A stretch of DNA of 64,000 bases from Pelotomaculum thermopropionicum SI (lineage in GTDB: Bacteria > Bacillota > Desulfotomaculia > Desulfotomaculales > Pelotomaculaceae), in assembly GCA_000010565.1 (NCBI GenBank), contig AP009389.1, positions 1,984,001-2,048,000 on the forward strand. The letters run 5' to 3'. Under the pieces are notes generated by a model. It was not told the origin of the DNA and ran no database searches. It saw nothing but the letters and a program-made list of their open reading frames with translations. Each line of letters opens with the position of its first letter. Position 1 is the first letter of the stretch. Made by a program: the position numbers and the translations under genes. Positions 8,101 through 44,822 of the stretch are shown here, piece by piece.

Positions 8101-11100
8101 AGGCAGGCTAAAAACTCACTTTTTAATTTTTATCAGTAAGTTTCGGCTCAGAGTTTCAATTCCTCATAGGCAGGCTAAAAACGGAATGACGGGCTTTTTC
8201 TTTCTTTTTTTTTCTGAGTTTCAATTCCTCATAGGCAGGCTAAAAACAAACGGCAGGCCGCTTGTATTCGCCGCAAGCGTTGAAGAGTTTCAATTCCTCA
8301 TAGGCAGGCTAAAAACGCCCCTCCTTAACGAGGCAAAATGCGGTTTGCGCCAAGTTTCAATTCCTCATAGGCAGGCTAAAAACTTAAAGACCATGAAGCG
8401 TTAGACAAGTGGTTGTCATTGTTTCAATTCCTCATAGGCAGGCTAAAAACTTTCACTGTTAGCGGTTTATAATCGGTTTGCCCGAGTTTCAATTCCTCAT
8501 AGGCAGGCTAAAAACTCACTGAACGAAGTAGGTTAATTAACTTACGGAAGTGCTGTTTCAATTCCTCATAGGCAGGCTAAAAACGGTAAAACAGTGTCGA
8601 CGGCCCATCATACTCCCTGAGTTTCAATTCCTCATAGGCAGGCTAAAAACAGGCATGGAAGAAGACGTGGTTATCCACGCCGTCCAGTTTCAATTCCTCA
8701 TAGGCAGGCTAAAAACGTCTCTCTGAGGCTGGCTTGCCCTTGTTCCAAGGAACGTTTCAATTCCTCATAGGCAGGCTAAAAACACCCGTCCAGATGACTA
8801 TCCTGCTCCGCCGGTAGCCGGTTTCAATTCCTCATAGGCAGGCTAAAAACTCGGCTCCGGGATGATGCCCAGGGCACGGGCCTGTTTGTTTCAATTCCTC
8901 ATAGGCAGGCTAAAAACAAAAACAGCCGCCGCACGCAAAGGTACGAAGAAATGATGTTTCAATTCCTCATAGGCAGGCTAAAAACGTTGTATTTCATACA
9001 TGGATTTTAAAAAGTGCTATTTGTTTCAATTCCTCATAGGCAGGCTAAAAACATGCACTACGAAACTAGGGACGCCAGGACGTTCACGGGGTTTCAATTC
9101 CTCATAGGCAGGCTAAAAACTCAGAACAAGATGTATACTCTAGGAAAGTTTTCTGAAGTTTCAATTCCTCATAGGCAGGCTAAAAACAAAATTGGAGCAA
9201 ATTGCACAAAAGCAATAGAATATATTGTTTCAATTCCTCATAGGCAGGCTAAAAACAACAAATTGACATTAAGTAAACATACTCTTAAAAGATGTTTCAA
9301 TTCCTCATAGGCAGGCTAAAAACTTAAAAAAGGAGTGATTTAAATGGCAAGATTAACAAAGTTTCAATTCCTCATAGGCAGGCTAAAAACATATTCATGT
9401 TTCTCTGCCATTCCTTCAGGTCATCGGAGTTTCAATTCCTCATAGGCAGGCTAAAAACGAAAATACTCTGCTCCAGCGGCTTCCCCAGATACTGTTGTTT
9501 CAATTCCTCATAGGCAGGCTAAAAACTGTCCTCGATAATTTTGTCATACATTGCTGGACACCCCGTTTCAATTCCTCATAGGCAGGCTAAAAACGAATCA
9601 TATACTATAAAATATGTGCATGAATTCGTAAAAGTTTCAATTCCTCATAGGCAGGCTAAAAACGGAAGGCTTCGCAATAACCCAAGTCAAATGGTGCAAG
9701 TTTCAATTCCTCATAGGCAGGCTAAAAACTCAAAAGCGAAAGCAACGGGTTTTCCATCCGTTGCTCGTTTCAATTCCTCATAGGCAGGCTAAAAACTGTG
9801 CGTGAAGCCCTCCGCCGAGCCGTACTTAACGGGTTTCAATTCCTCATAGGCAGGCTAAAAACGGTTAGGAAATTGGAGGTGCCCTGCGATGGCTGAATGT
9901 TTCAATTCCTCATAGGCAGGCTAAAAACAGACTTACCGGGACGCAGCCTGGGACTGGTACAGAGGTTTCAATTCCTCATAGGCAGGCTAAAAACAACTGG
10001 GTAATTTGCGGGTCAGAGGCTGGTCCTGGTGGTTTCAATTCCTCATAGGCAGGCTAAAAACAAAGATATCCAAAAATAACTATCACATAGACCATAGTTT
10101 CAATTCCTCATAGGCAGGCTAAAAACCTATAAGCATAGCCATTGGAACATGCATCTGCATTGGTTTCAATTCCTCATAGGCAGGCTAAAAACGTGTTCTG
10201 CCTGTTAGGGCCGAAGAGGCGCAAGAGAGTTTCAATTCCTCATAGGCAGGCTAAAAACTCCCGCCGTCCTGCGAGACGCCGGAAGGGGAGGTGATAGTTT
10301 CAATTCCTCATAGGCAGGCTAAAAACATAGCCGATGCTTCAATTACATCCGCAAAAATAGCGTTTCAATTCCTCATAGGCAGGCTAAAAACGGCGGTACT
10401 AGCTAAGGGTATTGCCAGCGTGTTTATGTTTCAATTCCTCATAGGCAGGCTAAAAACTGGTTGCCGGGTTGGTAGTAAATCGGCCAGGTACTGAGTTTCA
10501 ATTCCTCATAGGCAGGCTAAAAACTCCTCATAACAGGCTAAAAACTGATAAACAATAAAAGTTTCAATTCCTCATAGGCAGGCTAAAAACGTACTCACGA
10601 GGCAATTATAAGCGACAGAGTATTTAGGTTTCAATTCCTCATAGGCAGGCTAAAAACACATACGCCGCCAACGAGGCGGCCTGCTATAGGCTTTGGTTTC
10701 AATTCCTCATAGGCAGGCTAAAAACGGAAATGCCAACGGCCGACACCGTACACACTTCCGCGTTTCAATTCCTCATAGGCAGGCTAAAAACATAGTGAAA
10801 TGCTGGAAAAGGTAGACCGCTCTTTGAAGTTTCAATTCCTCATAGGCAGGCTAAAAACGAACTGTCCTCTCTCAGTGTGCGTTTCCACCACCTCGTTTCA
10901 ATTCCTCATAGGCAGGCTAAAAACGGTGGACGCCGTTTCCCTTCATGACGATAGCTCCCGGTTTCAATTCCTCATAGGCAGGCTAAAAACTCGAAACCGA
11001 CCTGGTAACATTCACAGGCGACGGCGGTTTCAATTCCTCATAGGCAGGCTAAAAACCATATACAATCACCCGCCGGGCCAGGGTGCCTGCCGGTTTCAAT

Positions 11101-12925
11101 TCCTCATAGGCAGGCTAAAAACGGGGGCAAGGTGCCGGAGAAAAGAGGTAAAATGAAATAGTTTCAATTCCTCATAGGCAGGCTAAAAACGTTCCGATTT
11201 CCCGGCGAATCTCTTCTTGCGTGAATCGTTTCAATTCCTCATAGGCAGGCTAAAAACACCCGTTGAAAGCCATGGCCCAGGTTACTTTGCTGGTGTTTCA
11301 ATTCCTCATAGGCAGGCTAAAAACACGGCCGCGGTTGGAGAGTTCCTCTCTGCAGTCGAGTTTCAATTCCTCATAGGCAGGCTAAAAACTAACAACCTCC
11401 CCACCAGAAAATTAAACGAAAGGGGTAAGTTTCAATTCCTCATAGGCAGGCTAAAAACGGGTGCACTGAAGGAGCACATTCAACCGCAACAGGATGGTTT
11501 CAATTCCTCATAGGCAGGCTAAAAACGTAGTTGTTGCTGAGCCATTGCTGCCTGCTGGAGAGTTTCAATTCCTCATAGGCAGGCTAAAAACCGTCATAAC
11601 CGTGCTGGACGTCACTGAGTTGCCGTAGTTTCAATTCCTCATAGGCAGGCTAAAAACGCAAACTGAGGCGCTTTTCACTGTCGGTCATGGCCTTCGTTTC
11701 AATTCCTCATAGGCAGGCTAAAAACGGACGATTGATCCAATCGACTGGAAGGAAAGATATTTGTTTCAATTCCTCATAGGCAGGCTAAAAACTTGTATTA
11801 AGGAATAATTACTATTCTTTTACACTTTGTTTCAATTCCTCATAGGCAGGCTAAAAACCGTCATAACCGTGCTGGACGTCACTGAGTTGCCGTAGTTTCA
11901 ATTCCTCATAGGCAGGCTAAAAACGCAAACTGAGGCGCTTTTCACTGTCGGTCATGGCCTTCGTTTCAATTCCTCATAGGCAGGCTAAAAACGGACGATT
12001 GATCCAATCGACTGGAAGGAAAGATATTTGTTTCAATTCCTCATAGGCAGGCTAAAAACTTGTGTGCAATTTCAGGGTGATCAAGGAAGTTGATGTTTCA
12101 ATTCCTCATAGGCAGGCTAAAAACCGGCCGGTTCCGGAGCTGGCCGGGGATATGCCCCTCCTGTTTCAATTCCTCATAGGCAGGCTAAAAACGCAAGCAA
12201 TGCTGGCCAGCACTTGGCTTGGTTAGACGCGTTTCAATTCCTCATAGGCAGGCTAAAAACGTAATGAAAATGTCGGAAAGAGGACTTATTCCTGCGAAGT
12301 TTCAATTCCTCATAGGCAGGCTAAAAACTTCAAAATGTCGATGTCTGATTTCCCTTGTTCTTTGTTTCAATTCCTCATAGGCAGGCTAAAAACCGTGCCT
12401 GCTTCCGTCATCACGCCCTGCTGGACGTAGGTTTCAATTCCTCATAGGCAGGCTAAAAACTCCAACGAGAGTTTCTTCCTCTTTTTTCCCAAAATCGTTT
12501 CAATTCCTCATAGGCAGGCTAAAAACCTGCCGACCAAGGCGGAAGAATTCGGTTTGGTGCTGTTTCAATTCCTCATAGGCAGGCTAAAAACGCGTGCCTC
12601 ATCTTTGACTTCTGAAAGGGGGCTTTCGTTTCAATTCCTCATAGGCAGGCTAAAAACTTGCGATTACCACTACACGTTCCCCCCTTTCGGTTTTGTTTCA
12701 ATTCCTCATAGGCAGGCTAAAAACTGAATCCCGACGGCACGCGTACCGTCGTCGTAGTGCCGTTTCAATTCCTCATAGGCAGGCTAAAAACTTCCACGCG
12801 GCAGGGTCACTACCTGCGAATTCTTCGGTTTCAATTCCTCATAGGCAGGCTAAAAACAATGGAAACCAGGTCGGCTACCGCCGAAGTCTTAGCCGGTTTC
12901 AATTCCTCATAGGCAGGCTAAAAAC
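5142..12925 (-). CRISPR. CRISPR array block A (leader-distal; ~117 repeats)
   Basis: Direct repeats of 30 nt with spacers of about 34-39 nt. On the minus strand, the transcribed direction inferred from the 3' handle ATTGAAAC, the repeat starts GTTTTTAGCCTGCC and contains the stem CCT-ATG-AGG. Repeats are almost invariant. The exception is the first (5142-5171), whose six outer bases on the left are changed, which is typical of a terminal, leader-distal repeat. The count of ~117 comes from span and period. The block holds the oldest spacers. It includes a four-unit segmental duplication (11592-12029) and a spacer that contains a piece of repeat (10525-10560). An IS4-like element at 12946 separates it from block B. 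Confidence 0.97.
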
Positions 12926-14603: not shown

Positions 14604-17600
14604 GTTTCAATTCCTCATAGGCAGGCTAAAAACCCAGGCCGCGGCAGTACTTCATCAACTGCTCATCGCGGGTTTCAATTCCTCATAGGCAGGCTAAAAA
14701 CGAAGAAACTTTTCTTTTTCTCCCTCTTTCTCTCTGCGGTTTCAATTCCTCATAGGCAGGCTAAAAACGTAAAAGAAATATTTAATTCTTTTGCCCTTTT
14801 ATCAAAAGTTTCAATTCCTCATAGGCAGGCTAAAAACGTTCGTTCTAGTGCAGAAATTGCACCAGAACGAGAACGTTTCAATTCCTCATAGGCAGGCTAA
14901 AAACGGATCGCTGAAACCCTTGATTTTACTGAGGCGACCAAGTTTCAATTCCTCATAGGCAGGCTAAAAACTTTCCATGTAATATAACCCTCTGTTTGTC
15001 TTTTAGTGGTTTCAATTCCTCATAGGCAGGCTAAAAACGGGTGACCAGGTTAACCGCCATCTGGCCGCTGGACAGTTTCAATTCCTCATAGGCAGGCTAA
15101 AAACGATATCGTCCATGTAGCGAATGTAATATTTCAGCCTGTTTCAATTCCTCATAGGCAGGCTAAAAACAGTAGTTTGGCAACATCTTCCTGGGTGAGT
15201 ACCCGCGGGTTTCAATTCCTCATAGGCAGGCTAAAAACCTTCATCCAGGCTTGGCGTTACAACACGGAACTTTTGTTTCAATTCCTCATAGGCAGGCTAA
15301 AAACTTTATAACTCCAGCGGTTTGGCGAAATGTCGGTAAAATGTTTCAATTCCTCATAGGCAGGCTAAAAACGTCTGCTTGCAGGCAGGTCAGGTTTTCC
15401 AGTCCCAGGGGTTTCAATTCCTCATAGGCAGGCTAAAAACTTAAATGTAAGTATGAAAGGTTATTATCTGAGCCGAAACTGTTTCAATTCCTCATAGGCA
15501 GGCTAAAAACCGTGCCGGCCGCCAACATGGACAAGGCAGCAGCCCCTTGTTTCAATTCCTCATAGGCAGGCTAAAAACTCTGGAATGCATCGTCATGTAT
15601 ATGTTCACAAAGTAAGTTTCAATTCCTCATAGGCAGGCTAAAAACAGTCAAAAGAAAGGGTGGAATGGATAAAGTTTTTTAGTGTTTCAATTCCTCATAG
15701 GCAGGCTAAAAACTAACACAAGGTTAAGGGGAACAGTAGATATGTTTGTAGTAGTTTCAATTCCTCATAGGCAGGCTAAAAACTTCCTGCTACAGGAATA
15801 AAGTAATTCAAATATCCTAGTTTCAATTCCTCATAGGCAGGCTAAAAACACGGCAACAAAAGAAGGATATGAGACAAAAACGGTAAGTTTCAATTCCTCA
15901 TAGGCAGGCTAAAAACCGAAGTGCGCCGGCTGGCGCATCGGAAATTGATGTTCGTTTCAATTCCTCATAGGCAGGCTAAAAACCCGGGGTTGTTGTAACC
16001 CCAGCGAACCGGTTCGAGTTTCAATTCCTCATAGGCAGGCTAAAAACGGCCCACGAAAGCCGCCACGCTTTCAACTGATCGTCAGGTTTCAATTCCTCAT
16101 AGGCAGGCTAAAAACCTTTCTATCGCCAGCACGTTTTGAGGAAGGTTCTCACGTTTCAATTCCTCATAGGCAGGCTAAAAACTATCCGAAACCTGGATTC
16201 AAGAATGAGGCAACTGAGTTTCAATTCCTCATAGGCAGGCTAAAAACGTTACAGGAACTACATATAGTGCGGAGATTTTCCATAGTTTCAATTCCTCATA
16301 GGCAGGCTAAAAACCTCCTTCGGACAGAATGCCCCGATTGACGAGGAAACGTTTCAATTCCTCATAGGCAGGCTAAAAACGAAACAGCTAGGGAGATTGC
16401 GCTGGGCGAGGAGATGTTTCAATTCCTCATAGGCAGGCTAAAAACTTCTGCCGGTGGCCTCAATTGCTTCCTTTATCAACTGTTTCAATTCCTCATAGGC
16501 AGGCTAAAAACCTGCCGGAAAAACCGAGTAATTGAGAAAAAGTGTTGAGTTTCAATTCCTCATAGGCAGGCTAAAAACCTGTTAGAATCCAGATAAAAGC
16601 TATCATGATAATAGGTTTCAATTCCTCATAGGCAGGCTAAAAACGATTTACCGACACTGTTCACCCCTCCTTAGCCTCGCAGGTTTCAATTCCTCATAGG
16701 CAGGCTAAAAACCAACGATTTCCTGGTGACGTACAGCACCCGCCGCGCACGTTTCAATTCCTCATAGGCAGGCTAAAAACCGAGGTGCAGCGGCTCGTTC
16801 CCGTCGCCGGCTAGGTTTCAATTCCTCATAGGCAGGCTAAAAACCATACTCAATTCCCAAGTATCAAGAGCGTTCAACAGGTTTCAATTCCTCATAGGCA
16901 GGCTAAAAACTGTGCTTATATAGGCAGATCCATATTTCGCCCACAGGCACGTTTCAATTCCTCATAGGCAGGCTAAAAACGGTCTCATTTTTTTGTTTCT
17001 TCTTCTAGGATAGGCTGTGTTTCAATTCCTCATAGGCAGGCTAAAAACCAATAAACAACTACCCTCTTTTCCAAAAAACTTTTTCTGTTTCAATTCCTCA
17101 TAGGCAGGCTAAAAACTAAGGTGGGTGTTGAGATTTATTAGATATATAGGTGTTTCAATTCCTCATAGGCAGGCTAAAAACCCCAGCCTAGCCTAGCCTA
17201 GCCAACCCAGGCCGCCTGTGTTTCAATTCCTCATAGGCAGGCTAAAAACAAAGTGTCAAGCTGATCGACTTGACACCAAAGTGTGTTTCAATTCCTCATA
17301 GGCAGGCTAAAAACTGTCGGTTGGGCGTGATGTCCTCCGGGGCGCGATAGCGTTTCAATTCCTCATAGGCAGGCTAAAAACTATGCGGTGACGATACTTG
17401 CAGAAATAAGTCGGGGTGTTTCAATTCCTCATAGGCAGGCTAAAAACTGGGTCCTTCCCCAAAAGTGAGGGTCGGTTTGAACGGGTTTCAATTCCTCATA
17501 GGCAGGCTAAAAACTCGTCGGCTACTACGGGGCGCTGGACCCTAGCCTGGGTGTTTCAATTCCTCATAGGCAGGCTAAAAACTTACCGTTACCGTTGCGT

Positions 17601-20600
17601 CGTTTCCGCGACGGTACGGGTTTCAATTCCTCATAGGCAGGCTAAAAACGCCAGAATGTAGACTGTCACCTGCCAGTTTAGTTGGTTTCAATTCCTCATA
17701 GGCAGGCTAAAAACTTAGCCTGACAGTTAGAACCGCGACGGGGCAGTTAGGTTTCAATTCCTCATAGGCAGGCTAAAAACCCAAGCGAAGGACCGCGAGC
17801 AAGAGTTGAAGACCGCGGTGTTTCAATTCCTCATAGGCAGGCTAAAAACTACCCAGCCTGACCCCCAGGGTACCCCGCCAGGCAGTTTCAATTCCTCATA
17901 GGCAGGCTAAAAACTCCGCTGTGCTTGCCCCGCCATGCTCCTTGTTATGAGTTTCAATTCCTCATAGGCAGGCTAAAAACCCGACGCCAAGACGGCGCCA
18001 AAATCCGGCTCGACAGGTTTCAATTCCTCATAGGCAGGCTAAAAACCAAATGGGATAGAGGGTGTAGGGTATCATCCTGTAAGGTTTCAATTCCTCATAG
18101 GCAGGCTAAAAACTCGTTCGACTATGCTTGTGCCAGCATACCTATCGCGTTTCAATTCCTCATAGGCAGGCTAAAAACTTTCTCCCCAGGCCGGGACAAG
18201 CCCTATTCCAGCCGGGGTTTCAATTCCTCATAGGCAGGCTAAAAACTGTGTGGACATATGCGTATGCGTGTGGTATGATGTAGGTTTCAATTCCTCATAG
18301 GCAGGCTAAAAACCCCAGCCTAGCCTAGCCTAGCCAACCCAGGCCGCCTGTGTTTCAATTCCTCATAGGCAGGCTAAAAACGCGAGTCAACCAGCCAACC
18401 CAGTCGCCGACAGCCGCGTTTCAATTCCTCATAGGCAGGCTAAAAACCGTGCGCGAACGTACCCTGCCCAGCGGTGACACGGTGTTTCAATTCCTCATAG
18501 GCAGGCTAAAAACTACCGCCGGCTGCTCGACGCAGCCCGGCGGTTCCTCCAGGTTTCAATTCCTCATAGGCAGGCTAAAAACGGGAAGTGCTTGAAACGT
18601 ATATAGGCGAAGGAGGTACGTTTCAATTCCTCATAGGCAGGCTAAAAACCTATGTCTGAAGTGCTAGAAGCCCCGAACGCGGCGGAAGTTTCAATTCCTC
18701 ATAGGCAGGCTAAAAACGTAAAAGCAACCAAATAAACACACCGCCTTTTTATGTTTCAATTCCTCATAGGCAGGCTAAAAACCGCCTTTGTCAGTGTGGC
18801 CCAGGCGGTAGCTGCGCTGTTTCAATTCCTCATAGGCAGGCTAAAAACATGGATCGGACGCCGGAACAGTAAACAATTTTTCTGGTTTCAATTCCTCATA
18901 GGCAGGCTAAAAACCTGGTCTACCACGTCCGCACCTCCCACACCGCTTGTTTCAATTCCTCATAGGCAGGCTAAAAACCGATAGGGTGTATCCCGTATTG
19001 GGCGATATTCCTATCTGTTTCAATTCCTCATAGGCAGGCTAAAAACACCCGGGGCGGCAGGTGCAGGATATCTTCTATCACCGGTTTCAATTCCTCATAG
19101 GCAGGCTAAAAACGGACTATGAAGCTGTCCTTCCAGGTACCCGACCACCGGTTTCAATTCCTCATAGGCAGGCTAAAAACGGCTAAAAAAGATTCTGTAT
19201 TAACAATTGATGTCCCGTTTCAATTCCTCATAGGCAGGCTAAAAACCCCCACAATCCAAAAACGTGATTTTCGCCGTTCGGTTTCAATTCCTCATAGGCA
19301 GGCTAAAAACACTGCCTCGAAAAAGCATTCCGGGCTGCCGGCATTCCGTTTCAATTCCTCATAGGCAGGCTAAAAACACCCTAGACTAGCCTAGACTAGC
19401 CAGGCCGCCTGTGTTTCAATTCCTCATAGGCAGGCTAAAAACTTTTCCATCAACGTCACCTCCGCAGATTAGTCTTATGTTTCAATTCCTCATAGGCAGG
19501 CTAAAAACGCCGTGGCCGGCCAACTCGGCGGCTATAACCTGCCGGGCGTTTCAATTCCTCATAGGCAGGCTAAAAACGTTACCGTTACCGTCGCGTCGTT
19601 TCCGCGACGGTACGGGTTTCAATTCCTCATAGGCAGGCTAAAAACGTAACCTGCCGCCACCCGCTCCAGGGGTTGTACTCAGGTTTCAATTCCTCATAGG
19701 CAGGCTAAAAACCTGATCGACTTGACACCAAAGGGTACCCCGCCAGGCAGTTTCAATTCCTCATAGGCAGGCTAAAAACTAAGATATAGCGCTGCGGTTT
19801 GCCATCCTCTATGCTGTTTCAATTCCTCATAGGCAGGCTAAAAACTCCGTGTGGGCCAGGGGAGAGCTGCAGGAGCACATGTTTCAATTCCTCATAGGCA
19901 GGCTAAAAACTGAGGAAATGCTTGGAGTGCAGAGGTTGGAGGAACCGCGTTTCAATTCCTCATAGGCAGGCTAAAAACTCCTGCCTCGAAGAGTGCCCAT
20001 TCTGCCGGGAGTTCGTTTCAATTCCTCATAGGCAGGCTAAAAACTTCCTGGATGCTGAAGCCGTCCTCAATAAGTTCCGTGTTTCAATTCCTCATAGGCA
20101 GGCTAAAAACGGAGTTCTGGCAGGAACTTTCCAAGCGGGAGGATCTTGTTTCAATTCCTCATAGGCAGGCTAAAAACTAAACATCGGTGATCCCAGCCTC
20201 GCTGGTGATCTCCAGTTTCAATTCCTCATAGGCAGGCTAAAAACTCACCACCAGCAAATAAAGACGGGTCATACTCACTGTTTCAATTCCTCATAGGCAG
20301 GCTAAAAACTACCCGAAGGACGCAGAGCTTTTCGGGCAGAGCTTCCGGTTTCAATTCCTCATAGGCAGGCTAAAAACCTCTTCTCGGGGGTACTTCGGCG
20401 CTGATTGTTGCACCAGTTTCAATTCCTCATAGGCAGGCTAAAAACCCTGTAATTTCTCAAAAGAATACTCATTTGCAGCAGTGTTTCAATTCCTCATAGG
20501 CAGGCTAAAAACGGAAATTATGAAATTTTTCGAGAAAAATAATTCTAGTTTCAATTCCTCATAGGCAGGCTAAAAACGAATCACTAAATTTATATGCTTG

Positions 20601-23600
20601 AACAGTACCTTGTTGGTTTCAATTCCTCATAGGCAGGCTAAAAACGCCTGGAGAGGTTGACGATGCTAACCAATGTATCTAAGTTTCAATTCCTCATAGG
20701 CAGGCTAAAAACTAACCGGGCTAGGCCTGAGCTGGTTTACAAAAAGAGGTGCGTTTCAATTCCTCATAGGCAGGCTAAAAACATGGCCGAAACAGGACGC
20801 CGCAATGGAATTTATTTCAGTTTCAATTCCTCATAGGCAGGCTAAAAACGCAAAATGCGGTTTGCGCCAACAATTACCCAATGGTTTCAATTCCTCATAG
20901 GCAGGCTAAAAACCCTCCACAGAGCCAGCACTGATTATCTGGCACGTCTAGTTTCAATTCCTCATAGGCAGGCTAAAAACGTTATAGCTGATGGCATGTA
21001 TGGGTTACGTGGCCGCGTTTCAATTCCTCATAGGCAGGCTAAAAACCGCACCTCCTTAGTCGGCAGATTGGCCACTCGTTCTTGTTTCAATTCCTCATAG
21101 GCAGGCTAAAAACGTGTTATTGGCCGCCGTCCATGTGCCGCGATACGGGTTTCAATTCCTCATAGGCAGGCTAAAAACTGCTTACTCGCTTGCAAAAGAA
21201 CTTAGAGAACAAGGCTAGTTTCAATTCCTCATAGGCAGGCTAAAAACTTCTTGCTCTGCCGATGTCAAGTTTGTTTTCTCGGGTTTCAATTCCTCATAGG
21301 CAGGCTAAAAACTTTCACCTGGCTTGGAAATATACTATCTTCTATATTGTTTCAATTCCTCATAGGCAGGCTAAAAACGATTGAACGGGCTGTGAAAAGC
21401 GCATCCAAGCGCGGTTTCAATTCCTCATAGGCAGGCTAAAAACCCTATCCCCTTCGCCTTTGCCTTCGCCTTTGCTTTGCGTTTCAATTCCTCATAGGCA
21501 GGCTAAAAACTTTACTGGATCAGTGGATGTATGGGGCAGGAGTAGGTTTCAATTCCTCATAGGCAGGCTAAAAACATAGCTCCATCAATCGGGAAAACAT
21601 AATTTAATACCCGTTTCAATTCCTCATAGGCAGGCTAAAAACATCATATTTAGCTATATATGCTCTAACTCCTTTACTGTTTCAATTCCTCATAGGCAGG
21701 CTAAAAACTGTCTATCCGGGAATGTCCCAAGAGTGCGGCCACTGGTTTCAATTCCTCATAGGCAGGCTAAAAACTCCCATTCCTGGCGCACCTCAGTTGT
21801 CTGTAATTTTGGTTTCAATTCCTCATAGGCAGGCTAAAAACTTATCGCCGCACAGCATGTAGAGGCCCACTCCTGAGTTTCAATTCCTCATAGGCAGGCT
21901 AAAAACGTTGAAAACGCTGAGTGTCGGTACTACTACGGCACCCAGGTTTCAATTCCTCATAGGCAGGCTAAAAACGTTTTCCGGTACAGAAAATCCAGGA
22001 CCTGCCGGTGATGTTTCAATTCCTCATAGGCAGGCTAAAAACCTCATAAGATACGAGCGAGCACTTGAGATAGTGAAGGTTTCAATTCCTCATAGGCAGG
22101 CTAAAAACATAATCAAACCAAAGGGGTGAGTAAGATGATCGGAAGTTTCAATTCCTCATAGGCAGGCTAAAAACCAAGGTTAAATCTGCCAATTAGACAT
22201 GCAAAATCCGCAGTTTCAATTCCTCATAGGCAGGCTAAAAACGCAGGGTCGTTTCCTGCGAATTCTTCGCAGGCCGCCGTTTCAATTCCTCATAGGCAGG
22301 CTAAAAACGCTAGCCTGAAGGAGTGGAAAGAGGAGGTAGGATTCGTTTCAATTCCTCATAGGCAGGCTAAAAACGTGGAAGAAGAGGAGGACGAAAGTCC
22401 TTCCTCCTCCGTTTCAATTCCTCATAGGCAGGCTAAAAACCGAACTTCTGGTACTCGTCTAGGCCGTCACCGTATCTGTTTCAATTCCTCATAGGCAGGC
22501 TAAAAACATAAAGCTGGCGTCCTCTTCATCTGTGAAGATGAGGTTTCAATTCCTCATAGGCAGGCTAAAAACCCCGACGGGACGCGCACCGTTACCGTAC
22601 CGTCGCGGGTTTCAATTCCTCATAGGCAGGCTAAAAACTACGCCGCCAACGAGGTGGCCTGCTATAGGCTTTGGTTTCAATTCCTCATAGGCAGGCTAAA
22701 AACTCTAAAGCAGATGCAAGATACATAGAGGAATTGTTAGTTTCAATTCCTCATAGGCAGGCTAAAAACGCGGCCCGGTGCGGTGCGTATCGGGCCAGTA
22801 CCTCGGTTTCAATTCCTCATAGGCAGGCTAAAAACGCACTTCAGACATAGTGCACATCCTCCTTTTTTCGGTTTGTTTCAATTCCTCATAGGCAGGCTAA
22901 AAACTTCCTCCTCCTAACCACCAGCGGAACAGGCAGGCTGGTTTCAATTCCTCATAGGCAGGCTAAAAACTGAAGGACGTTTCCGGGGCGCACGAGGCGT
23001 GGTCCGGGGTTTCAATTCCTCATAGGCAGGCTAAAAACCCCAGGCCCTGCCCATGACGCAGGCACAGAAGGATAGTTTCAATTCCTCATAGGCAGGCTAA
23101 AAACCCTGATGCAGGTTTATGCCCCGTTGATGGATGTGGGTTTCAATTCCTCATAGGCAGGCTAAAAACGTTTGCCAGTTGGTTCTAGCCAACTGGCGAT
23201 CCGCCGAGTTTCAATTCCTCATAGGCAGGCTAAAAACTGATATACGGGCTATTGGAAGCATTCACGGCGTCAACGTTTCAATTCCTCATAGGCAGGCTAA
23301 AAACCTGGCAGGGGTATACTCTTAGGAATTCGTACTACTACGGTTTCAATTCCTCATAGGCAGGCTAAAAACTGTCTTTGATTTCGTCTATTTCCCGGGC
23401 CATTAGCTTTGTTTCAATTCCTCATAGGCAGGCTAAAAACTTAAAATTCTTCTTCAGGGTATAGGAGCCATAATCAGTTTCAATTCCTCATAGGCAGGCT
23501 AAAAACTATGAGCCTTGCGACGCCTATGGTTGCACTGAACGAGTTTCAATTCCTCATAGGCAGGCTAAAAACGAATAAATGAAACTTCTCATTCCCGAGA

Positions 23601-26600
23601 CCAAGGTCAAAAGTTTCAATTCCTCATAGGCAGGCTAAAAACGGTTTATCAGTGTTTATGTATACCTCGCTGCTATTGAGGTTTCAATTCCTCATAGGCA
23701 GGCTAAAAACTCGGAAATGGACGAAAATCCGTGATACATACCTCGAAGTTTCAATTCCTCATAGGCAGGCTAAAAACCCATGAATCAAAACATTCGCCGC
23801 ATCCACTAGTGCAGGTTTCAATTCCTCATAGGCAGGCTAAAAACCATAGAACGCAAACCAGATTAATGATTCACTGTCCGGTTTCAATTCCTCATAGGCA
23901 GGCTAAAAACATGAAACCCTTGTGTCGGCTATCCTGGAGAAGGTCTAGTTTCAATTCCTCATAGGCAGGCTAAAAACGCGCGCTGCCCAAGCTGACCAGG
24001 CAGGTTTACAGGGTTTCAATTCCTCATAGGCAGGCTAAAAACTCATAAAATATATTTCGTGTCAATTTAATCTCTAAAGAGTTTCAATTCCTCATAGGCA
24101 GGCTAAAAACATTGTGTCGTACCTATCCGCAATTCTCTTCTTAACGAGTTTCAATTCCTCATAGGCAGGCTAAAAACCTTGCTACCCAAATTATCGACCT
24201 CACTTTCTGACAATTGTTTCAATTCCTCATAGGCAGGCTAAAAACTGTCAGCAGCAATGAGAGAGGCAGGGCTGGATCCGGGTTTCAATTCCTCATAGGC
24301 AGGCTAAAAACTTATGATTCCCCGACGGTAATGTGGGAATGGGATGGTGTGTTTCAATTCCTCATAGGCAGGCTAAAAACAATGTTGAATATCCTCATTG
24401 TGTCGTACCTATCCGCGTTTCAATTCCTCATAGGCAGGCTAAAAACTATGCCAGCACCAAGCCCTGATTATTTATACCATCAGAGTTTCAATTCCTCATA
24501 GGCAGGCTAAAAACCCGAGGCCGAGGGCAGAAAACAACTACGTGCGCTTCGGGTTTCAATTCCTCATAGGCAGGCTAAAAACTCATCGCCGCGGCAGCAG
24601 TGAGAGAGTTCATGGTCGTTTCAATTCCTCATAGGCAGGCTAAAAACAAGGTGGGCAAAGTGCATTAAGGGAACTCGCAGAAAGTTTCAATTCCTCATAG
24701 GCAGGCTAAAAACCAGTTTTGGGTTATGAACAAAAAATAGATGTACGAATGTTTCAATTCCTCATAGGCAGGCTAAAAACGGAGTTCTAATATTACAGGA
24801 TTAAATATTTCATGTTGTTTCAATTCCTCATAGGCAGGCTAAAAACTTTTATAGGCGCTGAAGTGAGGTTTTACATCAAAACCGTGTTTCAATTCCTCAT
24901 AGGCAGGCTAAAAACATTGATGAAAAAATGCGGCAGGTAATATATGAAATAGTTTCAATTCCTCATAGGCAGGCTAAAAACCATGTCTTCAACCCAGGCC
25001 CGGGAATTCCAGGAATCGGTTTCAATTCCTCATAGGCAGGCTAAAAACTCGGAATAAGGGAGTACCACTTGCTGCCCAGACCCGTTTCAATTCCTCATAG
25101 GCAGGCTAAAAACACAACGGGCTTTTGATGTCATTGCTGCGGGATTTCAGTTTCAATTCCTCATAGGCAGGCTAAAAACACCAGGAAACCAAGCCTTTTG
25201 TCCTGCGTGGTGAAGTTTCAATTCCTCATAGGCAGGCTAAAAACCCGGCTCGAGATACTTATCTGTGATTACCTGGCCGGCGTTTCAATTCCTCATAGGC
25301 AGGCTAAAAACGGAGTACAAATATATTAGTAGTTTTCCTTCTTACAAGTTTCAATTCCTCATAGGCAGGCTAAAAACGTAAAGAGTTAAAAAGAAAATTG
25401 GATTTTATTTATGAGTTTCAATTCCTCATAGGCAGGCTAAAAACTTTATGAGGAGTTGGCAAAACCAGAGTGGCAACCAGTTTCAATTCCTCATAGGCAG
25501 GCTAAAAACTTATAAAAGGAACAGGTGTTCTTACTATTGTAGATGGGGTTTCAATTCCTCATAGGCAGGCTAAAAACTAACCTTGCTACACGATTTCCTT
25601 GTCTTTCTAATTCTTGTTTCAATTCCTCATAGGCAGGCTAAAAACACAAGGTAATTGTATATTATTTTTACTTTGTTATTGTGTTTCAATTCCTCATAGG
25701 CAGGCTAAAAACTTCTTTGTTGTCATAGAGTGTTAACGAGGTTTTAAAATGTTTCAATTCCTCATAGGCAGGCTAAAAACTTAGTTTGTTATTGTGAAAT
25801 AAGCTGTCCAGTAACCTCGTTTCAATTCCTCATAGGCAGGCTAAAAACTAAATAAAAAAATAGGAGGTTGTTTAAATGAAAGAAGTTTCAATTCCTCATA
25901 GGCAGGCTAAAAACTGAAATGATGGCAGAAATATTAGAGAAAAAACTTAAGTTTCAATTCCTCATAGGCAGGCTAAAAACTTCAAAAAGTGCTAGGGGAC
26001 TAGCACTATTCTTCAATAGTTTCAATTCCTCATAGGCAGGCTAAAAACTTAACACAAATAGTATAATAACAATAAAAGAGGTGAGTTTCAATTCCTCATA
26101 GGCAGGCTAAAAACTTAACACAAATAGTATAATAACAATAAAAGAGGTGAGTTTCAATTCCTCATAGGCAGGCTAAAAACCTATCATTCTTTCAGCTTAT
26201 GAATGTCTTTCAGAAGGACGTTTCAATTCCTCATAGGCAGGCTAAAAACGCCTTTTGTGTCAAGTAAAATTACTTGACACCCTCGTCGTTTCAATTCCTC
26301 ATAGGCAGGCTAAAAACAAGCCACAGAAGAAAAAGTTAAAATATTTTTAGAAAGTTTCAATTCCTCATAGGCAGGCTAAAAACCCTGTTGCACAAAATAC
26401 TTATGGCATATGCTTAGACGGTTTCAATTCCTCATAGGCAGGCTAAAAACCTGGTACAGCCGAATATAACTTAACCAATGGCACATAGTTTCAATTCCTC
26501 ATAGGCAGGCTAAAAACTACCTGAGAAAATATTAGATAAACTAACAAAAGAAGTTTCAATTCCTCATAGGCAGGCTAAAAACCTGGCCGGGTATTCTCAG

Positions 26601-29600
26601 CATACCCTGCGGGCGTAGTTTCAATTCCTCATAGGCAGGCTAAAAACCGGCGCAGGGAGTGGCGGAATTGATGTGTATGGTACGAGTTTCAATTCCTCAT
26701 AGGCAGGCTAAAAACTCCGTTACCTCCGGATCGCAGTCCTTCGGTTCGAAGGTTTCAATTCCTCATAGGCAGGCTAAAAACGTGGGGTAGAACTGACAAA
26801 TGGAAACGGTTTCCTCGAAGTTTCAATTCCTCATAGGCAGGCTAAAAACGCTTTACTTCCCATGCTTGTTATTGCATTTTTGGGAGTTTCAATTCCTCAT
26901 AGGCAGGCTAAAAACTTAGCAGATAATGCACCTGGCCCATACATATCCTGAGTTTCAATTCCTCATAGGCAGGCTAAAAACGGATGTTCCCGGGAGTTAC
27001 ACCGGCGCGCAGGGCCTGTTTCAATTCCTCATAGGCAGGCTAAAAACGCAGATTGTCTACTTCGCCCCCCTCGAGCCAGGTCAGTTTCAATTCCTCATAG
27101 GCAGGCTAAAAACTTCCCTTCATCCATCAGGGAACGAATGGTTTCTACGTTTCAATTCCTCATAGGCAGGCTAAAAACGTGGTGATTGGATGCCTTTACC
27201 GTGCTGCGGTTTTTGGTTTCAATTCCTCATAGGCAGGCTAAAAACAGAGTATCCAGGATTGTCTTAATGGCAGCATTCTCAGTGTTTCAATTCCTCATAG
27301 GCAGGCTAAAAACCCCATGGCCTATCCTCCTTCCAAAATTGGGAATTTCAGTTTCAATTCCTCATAGGCAGGCTAAAAACGAACGGCGCCGACAAGCTGC
27401 ACGAGGCCCTGGCGTATTTTGTTTCAATTCCTCATAGGCAGGCTAAAAACTCATCAATTAACCAGGTTTCAGTTTTTCTATACGGGTTTCAATTCCTCAT
27501 AGGCAGGCTAAAAACTTTGGATCTTGTCGAGGTCTACCTCTTCCCCGCCCTCGTTTCAATTCCTCATAGGCAGGCTAAAAACAAACCCTTGCTTGCATTC
27601 CTCCCATGTTTTACGCACGTTTCAATTCCTCATAGGCAGGCTAAAAACGGAGGAGCAAAAAGAGCTTCTTGAGGTGATGCAGGCGTTTCAATTCCTCATA
27701 GGCAGGCTAAAAACCTATGCCAGCGCTGAGCCGACCTTCGGCTACGTTGACATGTTTCAATTCCTCATAGGCAGGCTAAAAACCGATCCTGCTTTTAAGG
27801 GAGTCTCTGGATTTGATGCGTTTCAATTCCTCATAGGCAGGCTAAAAACACGAAACGAAGCATATAGCATACGTCATCGGCGGTTGTTTCAATTCCTCAT
27901 AGGCAGGCTAAAAACGGACGCCAGGGATATTACCAACGACCCCGGCACGCTGAGTTTCAATTCCTCATAGGCAGGCTAAAAACTGCGCTGCGCCCCCATC
28001 CGACTGAAGCTCGCCCAGGGTTTCAATTCCTCATAGGCAGGCTAAAAACACAAAACGGTCACGGTTAGCCTTGATGTCGCTTTCCTGTTTCAATTCCTCA
28101 TAGGCAGGCTAAAAACCCAAGCACAAGGTTCCCTATTACGGCGCACTCTCCAGGGCGTTTCAATTCCTCATAGGCAGGCTAAAAACTTGGCCAGCCGGTC
28201 CGCGTCCGGGTTATCGTACCCAGTTTCAATTCCTCATAGGCAGGCTAAAAACGTTGCACCCCGGTTTATATATCTAGGGTTTTTAGGCATGTTTCAATTC
28301 CTCATAGGCAGGCTAAAAACCCCCTGGCTCTCCCGTCGCGTGCGGCGCAGTAGGAGCTGTTTCAATTCCTCATAGGCAGGCTAAAAACATTTTTTCATAT
28401 TTTTCACCTACCCTTTATGGAATGTTTCAATTCCTCATAGGCAGGCTAAAAACATAAATTTGCAAAAATGTAAATACGTTATAAAAGTAAAGTTTCAATT
28501 CCTCATAGGCAGGCTAAAAACCCCTTAACAATTCTGCCATTTGTGCTGGTGTTTCTGGTTTCAATTCCTCATAGGCAGGCTAAAAACTTCCACATCCGCT
28601 TTAGTTTCTCCTACTTGAACGGGTTTCAATTCCTCATAGGCAGGCTAAAAACCACAGTTTCATAATAAGTTTCTTCTTTTGGTTTTTTGTTTCAATTCCT
28701 CATAGGCAGGCTAAAAACGTAAATTTGGGAGGGGTGATGGACTTTATCATGAGAGTTTCAATTCCTCATAGGCAGGCTAAAAACCCGGGCTTAATCCGGA
28801 AATTGCCGGCGATTATGGTCGTTTCAATTCCTCATAGGCAGGCTAAAAACCCTGTTGTAATAACTTACCATACATCGAATTGAGTAGTTTCAATTCCTCA
28901 TAGGCAGGCTAAAAACTTTTAAAAAATAAAAAAATCCGGATTTTAGCCCGGATGTTTCAATTCCTCATAGGCAGGCTAAAAACCTTTGCATTTGAAGTCC
29001 GAGATAAAAGCGAAGATGGGTTTCAATTCCTCATAGGCAGGCTAAAAACCACCCTATCAGGCCTTTGTAGTCCTCAAGATTATTGAGGTTTCAATTCCTC
29101 ATAGGCAGGCTAAAAACCGGCTGCTTGAATATCACCCGGAAGCCGGCTTCAGGGTGTTTCAATTCCTCATAGGCAGGCTAAAAACTTAACTTCGTTTCCG
29201 TTTTCGTCGAAGTATGTCCCGTGTTTCAATTCCTCATAGGCAGGCTAAAAACTTAAACATTGAGAATTATTTATTCCAAAATGTTTGGTTTCAATTCCTC
29301 ATAGGCAGGCTAAAAACGCATTGCCGCCCTGGATGCCAAGGCTGATTATATTGAGCTGTTTCAATTCCTCATAGGCAGGCTAAAAACGGCGGGACAGTCT
29401 TCGAACTGGTTTTCTCTCGGTCAGTTTCAATTCCTCATAGGCAGGCTAAAAACGTATTTTCCCGCCCTCCTGATACCAATCAATTTTCCCGTTTCAATTC
29501 CTCATAGGCAGGCTAAAAACTGGATGAAGGTGACGACGTCCACGACCCGGCGAACTGGAGTTTCAATTCCTCATAGGCAGGCTAAAAACACGAGATAGGA

Positions 29601-30655
29601 AATCCTATTGAGACAATAACCGAGCGGTTTCAATTCCTCATAGGCAGGCTAAAAACGCGCGACGGCATCATGAGAGTCCGGAACGGGCGGAAAGTTTCAA
29701 TTCCTCATAGGCAGGCTAAAAACTCTTGTAATAACCGATAGTCTTCGGCCTCGACGTAGTTTCAATTCCTCATAGGCAGGCTAAAAACAGGAATATATGA
29801 AAAATTTTGTGATTCCTGCGTTTGAGTTTCAATTCCTCATAGGCAGGCTAAAAACCTGGTCAAGTACTTCCCATCTAAAAGGACTTTCGGGGTTTCAATT
29901 CCTCATAGGCAGGCTAAAAACAGAGTGATTGAATAAGGGCGAGAATGGGAAATGATGTTTCAATTCCTCATAGGCAGGCTAAAAACTCAACAATGCAACT
30001 CAATTTAAGTTGGAGTTATGGTGGTTTCAATTCCTCATAGGCAGGCTAAAAACTCAGTTATCCTTTCTGAAGGTTGAATTATTACTACTTCGTTTCAATT
30101 CCTCATAGGCAGGCTAAAAACGCAATTCAGCCATTGCCGGGCACCTCCATACTCCTAACGTTTCAATTCCTCATAGGCAGGCTAAAAACCCGCACCAATA
30201 AACCACAATGTCGTATTCGTCACGGTTTCAATTCCTCATAGGCAGGCTAAAAACTTTTCCCCTTTTAATTTAAATTCATTTATCATTTCTTGTTTCAATT
30301 CCTCATAGGCAGGCTAAAAACTTTCCGGCATCATTACCGTTTTCCATCGGCTCTGCAGTTTCAATTCCTCATAGGCAGGCTAAAAACATATTATGGGGAG
30401 GTAGTTTTCGAATGAGGAAAAGGGTGTTTCAATTCCTCATAGGCAGGCTAAAAACAAATTTGTGCTTTACCTGTCAAAGAACTGGCAGAAGAGTTTCAAT
30501 TCCTCATAGGCAGGCTAAAAACAATCACATCCTGCACCATTTCTGAAGTACCATCAGGGTTTCAATTCCTCATAGGCAGGCTAAAAACGTCATAGAATGG
30601 GAGTGACATATTATTGGTTGTCAGAGTTTCAATTCCTCATAGGCAGGCTAAAAAC
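14604..30655 (-). CRISPR. CRISPR array block B (~241 repeats)
   Basis: The largest block, about 16 kb of uninterrupted repeat-spacer units with the same 30-nt repeat and a period of about 66-67 bp (count estimated from length). It contains exact spacer duplicates (17182-17219 = 18314-18351; adjacent 26049-26084 = 26115-26150), pairs of overlapping protospacers, and spacers carrying long inverted repeats. It ends in the spacer interrupted by the transposon at 30667. Translated frames such as F-Q-F-L-I-G-R-L-K-T are artefacts of the repeat, not proteins. Confidence 0.97.
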
Positions 30656-34257: not shown

Positions 34258-36352
34258 GTTTCAATTCCTCATAGGCAGGCTAAAAACGGTGATGAAGTGG
34301 CCGAAAAACGCAGCCTTTTCCAGGTTTCAATTCCTCATAGGCAGGCTAAAAACCCTGCCGCTCACGTTTCCGGTCGCATAGCACCTAGATAGTTTCAATT
34401 CCTCATAGGCAGGCTAAAAACAATGTATTGTTTTGCACATGGTAACGTTCAGGCTGTGTTTCAATTCCTCATAGGCAGGCTAAAAACACAAAGTTGCTTT
34501 AGTTTTATCCTGCGAATAAATGGTTTCAATTCCTCATAGGCAGGCTAAAAACCCTCGGGGAGCAGGTCAAAGAGCTGCTTGCACACTGGTTTCAATTCCT
34601 CATAGGCAGGCTAAAAACCTATTGATTTCATGGCGCACCCCCGTAGACCTTTTCGTTTCAATTCCTCATAGGCAGGCTAAAAACAAATACCCTTTTAGAG
34701 GAGGATAGCGATGGGAGTTTAGTTTCAATTCCTCATAGGCAGGCTAAAAACAGTATGCGTTCATTATAAAACAACCCCCAATCTCCTGTTTCAATTCCTC
34801 ATAGGCAGGCTAAAAACACCAAAGGGGTTTCCGCCCAGGTTCCGTGGGACCTGGTTTCAATTCCTCATAGGCAGGCTAAAAACGGGTGAATCTAAATTGA
34901 GAATAATACCGGAGGAAATGTTTCAATTCCTCATAGGCAGGCTAAAAACCAGACAATCCCATGATTGTCATGCCCAATTTTGAGCCGTTTCAATTCCTCA
35001 TAGGCAGGCTAAAAACAAGCGCATGACGGCCAGAGTGCAGATATTCAGCACGTGGTTTCAATTCCTCATAGGCAGGCTAAAAACCTCTATCGCGGCAATA
35101 AAAGGTTTTTCTGATGGTAGTTTCAATTCCTCATAGGCAGGCTAAAAACTGGTTGAAATACTTTCTGGCTTTATCAGCTGCTTTTTTGTTTCAATTCCTC
35201 ATAGGCAGGCTAAAAACAGCCATACATACCGCTAACGAGGGACTGGCGCAGGCTGGTTTCAATTCCTCATAGGCAGGCTAAAAACACAAGGGAAGTTGCG
35301 CAGAAATCAAACACTTAAGGGGAGTTTCAATTCCTCATAGGCAGGCTAAAAACCGGCGCGCTGCCCAAGCTGGCCAGGCAGGTTTACAGGGTTTCAATTC
35401 CTCATAGGCAGGCTAAAAACCACCGGGCGCCGGGCGGGGCTTGGAGGACGTCCGGAGGGGTTTCAATTCCTCATAGGCAGGCTAAAAACAGGACAAGATA
35501 CCTGTGCCTTTCCAGGAAAACTGGGTTTCAATTCCTCATAGGCAGGCTAAAAACAGGCCAGCCAGCCGATTGAGTTCATTGAGACTTTTTGGTTTCAATT
35601 CCTCATAGGCAGGCTAAAAACGGCGGCGGAGGCTGCCCTATTGCGGAAGCGGCTTATAGGTTTCAATTCCTCATAGGCAGGCTAAAAACCAAACTGCATA
35701 TCTCTGTTTTTCGTCTGGATATTCATGTTTCAATTCCTCATAGGCAGGCTAAAAACTATTCCGAAGTGCTCCACTTGCGCCGACATTTCTAGTTTCAATT
35801 CCTCATAGGCAGGCTAAAAACAACTAACGGGTGGCGCTAGTTCGATAAGAAATGAAAAGTTTCAATTCCTCATAGGCAGGCTAAAAACGGCTTTTGCCGG
35901 ACGTATAGACAATGCTACTAGTAGTTTCAATTCCTCATAGGCAGGCTAAAAACGACAACATCGGCAACCAAATCGAAGCGCCGGCCGAGCGGTTTCAATT
36001 CCTCATAGGCAGGCTAAAAACCTTAAGGATTTTTGAAGGATTTAAGCTGAGCCAGAATAGTTTCAATTCCTCATAGGCAGGCTAAAAACTAAATCAGAAC
36101 ACTAAACTTGCCGGTAAGTGTAGGGTTTCAATTCCTCATAGGCAGGCTAAAAACGGCTATCCGCTCAAAATCCTTTGCCTCATCTTTCGTGTTTCAATTC
36201 CTCATAGGCAGGCTAAAAACTTCTTGGCTCTTTCCACATTGGCCGCCAGCTCGTCAGTTTCAATTCCTCATAGGCAGGCTAAAAACCTCGTAGTTCACTG
36301 CCAGCACCACCCCCGCCAATGAGTTTCAATTCCTCATAGGCAGGCTAAAAAC
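34258..36352 (-). CRISPR. CRISPR array block C (~32 repeats)
   Basis: Same 30-nt repeat and spacer sizes; count from length and period. It is bounded on the left by the TniA/TniB transposon and on the right by the Tn554-like element starting in the spacer after 36352. The spacer at 35354-35390 recurs exactly in block D (42293-42329) and, two bases shorter with one substitution, in block B (23978-24012). Confidence 0.97.
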
Positions 36353-40395: not shown

Positions 40396-42557
40396 GTTTC
40401 AATTCCTCATAGGCAGGCTAAAAACTCCGCCCATTTCTCCGGTAGTTTCTCCAGGAGAAAGTTTCAATTCCTCATAGGCAGGCTAAAAACTGTGCTAGAT
40501 TATTATTCTAGCACACTATAGAGGGAAGTTTCAATTCCTCATAGGCAGGCTAAAAACTATGTATATGTGTTTCAAAAAGTGCTATGATAGCACGTTTCAA
40601 TTCCTCATAGGCAGGCTAAAAACCCCTTTAGATATCTCCGTCAGGGGGGGTAGTTATTGGTTTCAATTCCTCATAGGCAGGCTAAAAACCGCAAAAACAA
40701 TCCTCTTTTACCGCCCTTCAACGAGGTTTCAATTCCTCATAGGCAGGCTAAAAACAAATACTCCCGACAAGGACACCCCAAAGTGTCTTTATAGTTTCAA
40801 TTCCTCATAGGCAGGCTAAAAACGAAAAAGTACAACATAAAGTGAAAAATATTTATAAACGTTTCAATTCCTCATAGGCAGGCTAAAAACGGATATAGTT
40901 GGGCAGACTCATTTCCTCACCTTTTTCAGTTTCAATTCCTCATAGGCAGGCTAAAAACGCGCAGCGGTTACCAATATCCGGTTGACGCTAGGAGAGTTTC
41001 AATTCCTCATAGGCAGGCTAAAAACAGGGAAGTTTTTTCGTATACTGACTTCATACCCACTGGAGTTTCAATTCCTCATAGGCAGGCTAAAAACGGTATT
41101 GGCAACAAGGAGATTGATGGGAGGTGATGTTGTTTCAATTCCTCATAGGCAGGCTAAAAACTTTTTTGCACTGTATCAGACGATATATGTTGGTCCGGGT
41201 TTCAATTCCTCATAGGCAGGCTAAAAACGGATATTCCCAGGAACAAGTTGCCCGCCTCCTGGGAAGTTTCAATTCCTCATAGGCAGGCTAAAAACTTCAG
41301 GTATTGAACTTATCTTGCTCAGACCTGCACAGTTTCAATTCCTCATAGGCAGGCTAAAAACGGTCGTACCATTCGGCGTATTTGGAAACGGGAATATGTT
41401 TCAATTCCTCATAGGCAGGCTAAAAACTGCAAAAATGGATATTAAGTCTTGTAATTGGTGGTTGTTTCAATTCCTCATAGGCAGGCTAAAAACATAATTT
41501 CCAAGAAAAAAAGTTAATACCTTTTTCAGTTTCAATTCCTCATAGGCAGGCTAAAAACAAATCCTGCTATTTGGAAAGAGTGGTTAAAGGACCCGGGTTT
41601 CAATTCCTCATAGGCAGGCTAAAAACTGTATTACGAATTGTAAACAAAGCCGCCAATAGCGTTTCAATTCCTCATAGGCAGGCTAAAAACTTTTCTGCGA
41701 ACGCTCCCCTTTGTCACCCAGAACCGGGTTTCAATTCCTCATAGGCAGGCTAAAAACAAGTCTATAGCAAATTGTATTAAATTCTGATACAATGTTTCAA
41801 TTCCTCATAGGCAGGCTAAAAACGGTTAGAGGATTGGTGGGAGAGATAGCAGAGAAAGCAGTTTCAATTCCTCATAGGCAGGCTAAAAACACCTTTAGTT
41901 ATTTGTTTCCATGCCCTTTTTATCCAGGTTTCAATTCCTCATAGGCAGGCTAAAAACAAATTTTCTATTTATCATTTTTTCACTCTTTTTACGTTTCAAT
42001 TCCTCATAGGCAGGCTAAAAACTGAAAACTTACCCACCTCTTTACCAAATTTCCACCACTGGTTTCAATTCCTCATAGGCAGGCTAAAAACGTTATCCCC
42101 ATTTTCCCCAGGGTTATCTCCATGTTCTTGTTTCAATTCCTCATAGGCAGGCTAAAAACATAACATCCTCGGCAACTAAAATTGGACACCTACCGGTTTC
42201 AATTCCTCATAGGCAGGCTAAAAACCCGGCATCTTCTCCGACGCGGCTACCGCGATTGACCCGTTTCAATTCCTCATAGGCAGGCTAAAAACCGGCGCGC
42301 TGCCCAAGCTGGCCAGGCAGGTTTACAGGGTTTCAATTCCTCATAGGCAGGCTAAAAACCGCTCCGCAGGGGTCAGGTAAATCCCTTTTTTAGCGTTTCA
42401 ATTCCTCATAGGCAGGCTAAAAACATATCCGGCATGCGCCTTACGAACCGGGTGAGAACGCGTTTCAATTCCTCATAGGCAGGCTAAAAACCCAGTCAAA
42501 CCAGACATCATCGAGTGTTTGCCCGGTGTTTCAATTCCTCATAGGCAGGCTAAAAAC
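40396..42557 (-). CRISPR. CRISPR array block D (leader-proximal; ~33 repeats)
   Basis: Same 30-nt repeat and a period of about 66 bp. The right-most repeat (42528-42557) abuts the leader, so this block holds the newest spacers and is the only block directly connected to the leader promoter. Adjacent spacers 40491-40527 and 40558-40593 both carry GTGCTA...TAGCAC inverted repeats. Confidence 0.97.
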
Positions 42558-44066: not shown

Positions 44067-44095
44067 ATAGAACCACCCCCGCCCGTTTATAAAGA

Positions 44096-44599: not shown

Positions 44600-44603
44600 C
44601 ACT

Positions 44604-44711
44604 TTATTTACCCCCCACAGGTATTGCGGCACCTTTATGTATTTTTGCAACCTCCGGCCATGAGTAGAACACCGCGACTCCTATCCCGGCAAGCAGATAT
44701 GAGGTGTGCAT
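44604..44711 (-). CDS. Small hydrophobic ORF (35 aa) between cas3 and cas4
   Basis: Begins with ATG at 44711, seven bases after a strong GGAGG, and ends with TAA four bases before the cas4 ATG. Its last codons carry the G-run that acts as the cas4 ribosome binding site, so translation of the two is probably coupled. Sequence M-H-T-S-Y-L-L-A-G-I-G-V-A-V-F-Y-S-W-P-E then a basic tail suggests one short membrane-associated helix. No known cas family. It could be a leader peptide that controls cas4 translation rather than a functional protein. Confidence 0.4.
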   Translation of the reverse strand: MHTSYLLAGIGVAVFYSWPEVAKIHKGAAIPVGGK

Positions 44712-44822
44712 GTAAAATCCTCCATATTGCGCCTCTCTGCGTTTCCCTGAGCGATGCCGGCTCAACGCAAAAGTCTCGCATAATGAATAATCTTCATAGT
44801 GACAGTCTTTCTTTAAACGTAA

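Follow-up and report, generated by a model that had tools for sequence, protein, structure and literature searches.

CRISPR arrays and their surroundings

The window, by which we mean the whole stretch of 64,000 nucleotides that was analyzed, corresponds to positions 1984001-2048000 of the Pelotomaculum thermopropionicum SI genome, a single contig of 3,025,375 bp. It contains four type I-B CRISPR arrays. Their repeats, 422 in total, are identical and 30 nt long, and 412 of their 418 spacers are distinct. All four arrays are on the plus strand: array 1 (5208..12925) has 116 identical repeats (GTTTCAATTCCTCATAGGCAGGCTAAAAAC), array 2 (14604..30655) has 241, array 3 (34258..36352) has 32 and array 4 (40396..42557) has 33. 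Beside array 4, the minus strand carries type I-B cas genes (43074..48955), namely cas1 (cas1b; 43074-44108), cas4 (44096-44650), cas3 (44823-47240), cas5 (47228-47986) and cas7 (47987-48955). A 701-aa gene at 49066-51171, which matches no family, may be cas8. The sequences between the repeats are recognizable as type I-B spacers, being unique, about 36 nt long and set between identical repeats with I-B cas genes adjoining.

Two similar IS21-like modules, upstream of array 1 (1623-3901) and between arrays 2 and 3 (31538-33789), each encode an rve transposase of 483 aa and an AAA ATPase of 267-276 aa. An ORF of 200 aa precedes each module, and that of the first module is a DUF6431 ORF. Between arrays 3 and 4 (37116-40219), two tyrosine recombinases of 656 and 378 aa lie next to each other. 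Within array 1, a block of three spacers is present twice (11592-11762 and 11859-12029), and one spacer is exactly common to arrays 3 and 4 (35354-35390 and 42293-42329). There are also many overlapping or near-identical spacers, e.g., 7510/7648/17515, 23978/35354, 10658/22639 and 19578/17583/22573; such sets would be expected if related elements had been sampled repeatedly or had been the source of primed acquisition.

A symmetric box in two spacers

In the first-pass annotation, six palindromes were quoted as examples of a recurring class of spacers. All six are indeed found inside array spacers at the coordinates given. When we clustered the spacers by shared 11-mers, we obtained two small palindromic families, in addition to several palindromes within clusters of homologous spacers, and these latter clusters are probably coding. 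What recurs is limited to the two small groups, GTGTCAAG-N8-CTTGACAC (spacers 17250 and 26250, plus 19713 with one half) and AAAAAGTGCTA (spacers 25981, 40558 and 8986), whereas the rest of the palindromes are mutually unrelated.

The first group rests on two plus-strand spacers, at 26250..26287 (box GTGTCAAG-TAAAATTA-CTTGACAC) and at 17250..17284 (box GTGTCAAG-CTGATCGA-CTTGACAC). Both have the architecture TGTCAAG-N8-CTTGACA, with a length of 22 bp and perfect arms, but their centers differ. The box can be described as two inverted, -35-like TTGACA half-sites that are 8 bp apart, around a variable and usually A/T-rich center. It has features of an operator in that it is a two-fold symmetric site with a conserved sequence and a fixed spacing. 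A third plus-strand spacer (19713..19749), identified by the 11-mer clustering, has in common with 17250 the sequence CTGATCGACTTGACACCAAAG, which is the right half of the box. We scored spacers by their matches to the arms: both box-bearing spacers reach 14/14, while shuffled spacers have a maximum of 11 and, among approximately 1600 spacers of relatives, one reaches 11. Spacers 17250 and 19713 can also be translated without a stop as LIDLTPK(GTPPG), and these two might conceivably be coding in origin.

Searches for protospacers

We detected no full-length protospacer in the host's own genome, in 113 genomes of the order Desulfotomaculales or in the phage records searched. The phage records were searched with 8 kb of array 2, which gave no match, and with spacer 26250; this spacer was also used to search plasmids, and no full protospacer was found there. 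The exact 24-mer of 26250 is absent from viral contigs, although a near copy (27/28) is present in one of them (L143). In GTDB genomes the 24-mer occurs on three contigs, and in the one that was read it is intergenic. Origins by self-targeting or from IS ends were considered for 32 palindromic or clustered spacers and rejected, as none has a full match outside the arrays in the host genome. By inspection, overlapping spacers revealed no consistent triplet that could serve as a PAM. We infer the source DNA of 17250 and 26250 from the similarity of their boxes to those described below.

The box in mobile elements and phages

When spacers were compared with the 113 genomes of the order, 17250 was identical at 22 of 23 bases to element copies in three relatives. 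In each, tandem boxes 42 bp apart are situated just upstream of the RBS of a gene for an HTH protein; the element in question also encodes a D5-type primase and, in one case (L063), an integrase. A search of the 113 genomes with the arms alone detected the box in seven genomes other than that of the host, and the reversed pattern in none. In the order's elements the box is mostly paired at gene starts, with pairs in L062, L063, L190 and L191. Where it is paired in phages and integrative elements, at promoters or just 5' of an RBS, the boxes are often approximately 40-66 bp apart. One prophage (L191, in genome G044) has a TTGACA-17-TACAAT promoter framed by a pair of boxes. Box 1 includes the -35 element of this promoter, and a gap of 10 bp separates the end of box 2 from the ATG of an HNH gene, which is followed by TerS, TerL and portal genes. 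Thus, as would be expected of an operator, the box is found at a promoter or just upstream of a gene start, and often in multiple copies (L191, L062, L063 and L190). One genome (G022) has two boxes with the same center (L192, position 7435, and L193, position 6580), the former upstream of a gene encoding a fusion of a ParB-like protein and a DNA methyltransferase.

In IMG/VR, the box is present in 113 stretches, versus 15 for the reversed pattern, and 84 of 117 distinct box sites are outside ORFs of at least 90 aa. The genes 3' of these viral boxes include those for HNH, small terminase and large terminase proteins, but most are unknown. Among the matches listed in a scan of all spacings from N0 to N24, N8 was not enriched (5/119), and all five N8 sites were intergenic. 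Bacillus phage BM15, which is of the Herelleviridae type, has many copies of the box in intergenic DNA of its early region, with 16 BLAST places in the whole record. Within its first 50,000 positions (L313), TGTCAAG-TAAATTTA-CTTGACA occurs at 2620, 4424, 5032, 6309 and 7506 with conserved flanks. Unlike the late-operon cases, the BM15 boxes are at variable distances from promoters. The box also occurs in phage CM1.

The box upstream of ylxM-ffh

A search of the phylum found the exact box in 43 of 398 genomes, in comparison to about 9 for the reversed pattern. Of 41 chromosomal sites, 30 are just upstream of ylxM and 11 are not at this gene. The ylxM-linked sites span about 13 families, and in 29 of the 30 the box is 16-89 bp before the first conserved codon of ylxM. 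We confirmed the identity of YlxM by Pfam in nine instances (UPF0122, with Sigma70_r4 also matching), and in the case checked the gene after ylxM is ffh (SRP54).

Within Desulfotomaculales, the exact pattern missed ylxM. However, all eight ylxM genes checked in this order, including that of the host, keep a degenerate box with 11-13 of the 14 arm positions (seven of them with 12 or 13), typically TGTAAAG-N8-CTTGATA. None of 3000 random windows reaches 12/14 arm matches. If YlxM is taken as the candidate regulator, the exact and the eight degenerate copies place the box upstream of the regulator's own gene, where an operator bound by YlxM would be expected. The host's own copy is TGTAAAG-N8-CTTGAAA, right after a TTGACA-17-TAAAAT promoter. 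Spacers 17250 and 26250 match it poorly because it has diverged from the box by two arm mismatches as well as by a different center.

The first-pass annotation proposed that the palindromes reflect repeated sampling of phage repressor operators. The idea of an operator is supported for 26250 and 17250 (together with 19713), whose box recurs at promoters and gene starts of mobile elements and at ylxM-ffh, but a sigma-region-4-like protein fits better as its binder than a repressor of the CI kind, and an operator is not supported for the remaining palindromes. Paired palindromes overlapping the -35 and start regions of prophage operons are what classical CI-type operators would look like, and BM15 does encode an XRE-family HTH protein (27835-28155). 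On the other hand, no phage repressor explains why this box also stands before ylxM-ffh at 30 of the 41 chromosomal sites. In addition, the phage sites are at late or scattered promoters, before late and packaging genes, rather than demonstrably at an immunity region, and the box is shared by a phage of the Herelleviridae type (BM15) and by CM1. We therefore regard it as unlikely that the spacers sampled CI-type operators.

A possible binder of the box

The half-site TTGACA is the -35 hexamer, which is read by region 4 of sigma-70. A sigma-region-4-like protein, i.e., YlxM or a phage equivalent, is the likely binder and fits better than a CI-type repressor. To our knowledge, no experiment shows YlxM binding DNA. 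In the mechanism that we propose, the box would serve as a DNA operator to which an HTH protein resembling sigma-70 region 4 binds as a dimer, and a YlxM dimer could read the two inverted copies of TTGACA. At ylxM-ffh, YlxM itself would bind its own operon, while phage DNA could be bound either by the YlxM of the host or by a phage protein with equal specificity. The bound dimer would cover the -35 element or the start region, and so would repress or time the operon. No YlxM-like gene was found in the phage and element loci that carry the box; the PF04297 matches in element-bearing genomes are either distant from the boxes or on separate contigs.

The possibility that the palindromes act as RNA, i.e., as intrinsic terminators or leader hairpins in transcripts instead of DNA sites, must also be considered. 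All of the palindromes fold well as RNA, the minus strand of two spacers in the second group (25981 and 40558) shows a stem and then TTTTT, and YlxM has been reported to bind SRP RNA (PMC8546722). However, the spacer copies of the TGTCAAG box are not followed by a run of T, and its center shows no extra pairing. In the ylxM boxes of the order, the arms (TGTAAAG/CTTGATA) no longer pair fully, yet the sequence of the half-sites is kept. Moreover, the -35 element of the L191 promoter is part of box 1, which is upstream of that transcript. Because of these last two observations, we consider a DNA operator more likely than an RNA hairpin for the TGTCAAG box, and an explanation of the palindromes as RNA hairpins to be quite improbable.

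Palindromic spacers without the box

The second small group confirms the remark in the first-pass annotation that two of the quoted spacers share a sequence, since 25981 and 40558 both contain TTCAAAAAGTGCTA. Read on the minus strand, the spacer at 25981..26018 has AGTGCTAG-loop-CTAGCACT and then TTTTTGAA, and that at 40558..40593 has GTGCTATCATAGCAC and TTTTTGAA. Each is a stem plus TTTTT and so is terminator-like, although a terminator scan called only the second. Clustering by 11-mers added a third minus-strand spacer (8986..9022) with half of the motif, ATAGCACTTTTT. All three share AAAAAGTGCTA, which on the opposite strand is a stem and then TTTTT, and at the level of sequence 25981 and 40558 look like intrinsic terminators. 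A potential source of this group, TTCAAAAAGTGCTA-N-TAGCAC in one viral contig (L049), was rejected as probably a chance match, as no other spacer has a convincing match in that contig. GTGCTA-N-TAGCACTTTT is absent from the 112 other genomes of the order.

Of the other quoted spacers, the one at 14838..14874 contains TCGTTCTAGTGCA-N5-TGCACCAGAACGA, and the one at 40491..40527 contains TGTGCTAGA-N7-TCTAGCACA. The latter has GTGCTAGATT in common with two mobile elements (L062, 4128-4170, and L197, 1725-1770; CTTGACAGTGCTAGATTAATATAAT), where this sequence belongs to the promoter region that directly follows the TGTCAAG box; the stretch that it shares with L197 is 11 nt long (GTGCTAGATTA). Spacer 40491 may be another late-promoter fragment. 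The pattern GTGCTAGA-N7-TCTAGCAC matched six viral contigs, half of them inside ORFs, and we set it aside as not informative.

Several further palindromes are probably coding, with frames that we read by inspection. The spacer at 19578..19615 has a near copy at 17583-17619; a single change separates the two, and it is silent in one open frame and disrupts one palindrome arm. Similar cases, seen by eye, are 22243/12792 (a palindromic spacer at 22243..22278 and its homolog at 12792-12827) and 22573/12725. The conserved pattern of these coding spacers has no match in viral contigs. Because the GTGCTA group is terminator-like, several others read through as probable coding sequence and the palindrome is not kept in one near-duplicate pair, an operator reading is not supported outside the TGTCAAG group. 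The inverted repeats without this box are a mixed and largely ordinary collection of terminator-like and probably coding sequences.

This raises the question of whether all palindromes are coincidences that arise from runs of codons, with no functional class among them. By inspection, 19578/17583/22573/12725 and 22243/12792 do read as related coding sequence, and 17250/19713 have an open frame too. However, coincidence would have to produce two independent spacers with 14/14 arms at equal spacing, when shuffles never exceed 11. It is also contradicted, for the TGTCAAG box, by the fact that this box turns up again at particular sites in genomes, including ylxM. As a complete account, chance and coding sequence are thus very doubtful.

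Frequency of palindromes

We scored each spacer by its best ungapped inverted repeat, with +1 for a match, -2 for a mismatch and a loop of at most 12, and considered a score of at least 8 as strong. Among the 412 distinct spacers, 11 are strong palindromes, nine of them in array 2. The expected numbers are 1.8 for dinucleotide shuffles, 4.1 for random fragments of the host genome (drawn from 20 sample stretches) and 3.5 for GC-matched phage fragments (from 228 viral stretches, leaving out fragments near the searched motif). The excess over the phage fragments is about 3-fold, with a Poisson P of 0.001 at the post hoc cut-off of 8. It is present at cut-offs from 6 to 10, with P=0.003-0.013 at 7, 9 and 10, all of these cut-offs having been picked post hoc. 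Arrays 2 and 4 account for most of the excess. The comparison suggested in the first-pass annotation therefore shows palindromes to be commoner than in either shuffles or phage fragments, but the difference is modest, depends on post hoc thresholds and has no counterpart in related arrays: 1595 spacers in 19 arrays of the same repeat family contain 16 palindromes, against 14.1 expected.

A preference for hairpin DNA, whereby Cas1-Cas2/Cas4 or the supply of precursors favors inverted repeats in hairpin or cruciform form at acquisition, could underlie the 3-fold excess in the host but should then be visible in the related arrays too, and since these show none and the host's own excess is confined mainly to two arrays, we find this part of the earlier proposal unsupported and most improbable. 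We did not find the term "palindromic spacer" in any paper.

Interpretation and comparison with known systems

The explanation that we favor, and consider reasonably probable, is that the type I-B machinery acquired the palindromic spacers from invading DNA in the ordinary way, without a general taste for hairpins. Two of them, 17250 and 26250, would have captured a regulatory box that recurs at ylxM and in phages and is bound by a sigma-region-4-like protein, with a half-site also in 19713. A broader hypothesis is more tentative. Firmicutes phages and integrative elements might carry the host's ylxM-ffh operator at their own promoters, such that YlxM or a phage look-alike ties phage expression to the protein-targeting machinery; the spacers would then have captured this switch, with the host's copy having diverged enough to escape self-targeting. 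We view this as a possibility worth stating rather than as the expected outcome.

A vague impression of palindromic spacers is thereby replaced by a specific and testable element, namely one box common to ylxM-ffh and phage promoters. Palindromic spacers become explicable without invoking a general hairpin preference, and they can reveal conserved regulatory DNA of phages whose genomes are not known.

The arrays resemble other type I-B arrays of Desulfotomaculales in repeat family, spacer length (34-41) and the presence of Cas1b, Cas4, Cas3, Cas5 and Cas7. They differ from them only in their modest palindrome excess and in having two box-bearing spacers. With regard to phage regulation, the ArpU and RinA types are late-operon regulators of Firmicutes phages. 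The L191 box is similarly situated, at an operon that begins with HNH and terminase genes, although no ArpU/RinA-type regulator was identified beside the boxes. For YlxM (UPF0122, PF04297), an accessory role in the SRP has been described, in which the protein binds both Ffh and the small RNA (PMC8546722, PMC4993169). The papers on YlxM that we consulted report no DNA operator, although one may be known elsewhere. For this protein with its sigma-4-like DNA-binding fold, the box offers a candidate target. The ylxM-ffh operon shares the box, which precedes it in 30 of the 41 chromosomal matches, and encodes, in YlxM, an HTH similar to that of sigma-70 region 4.
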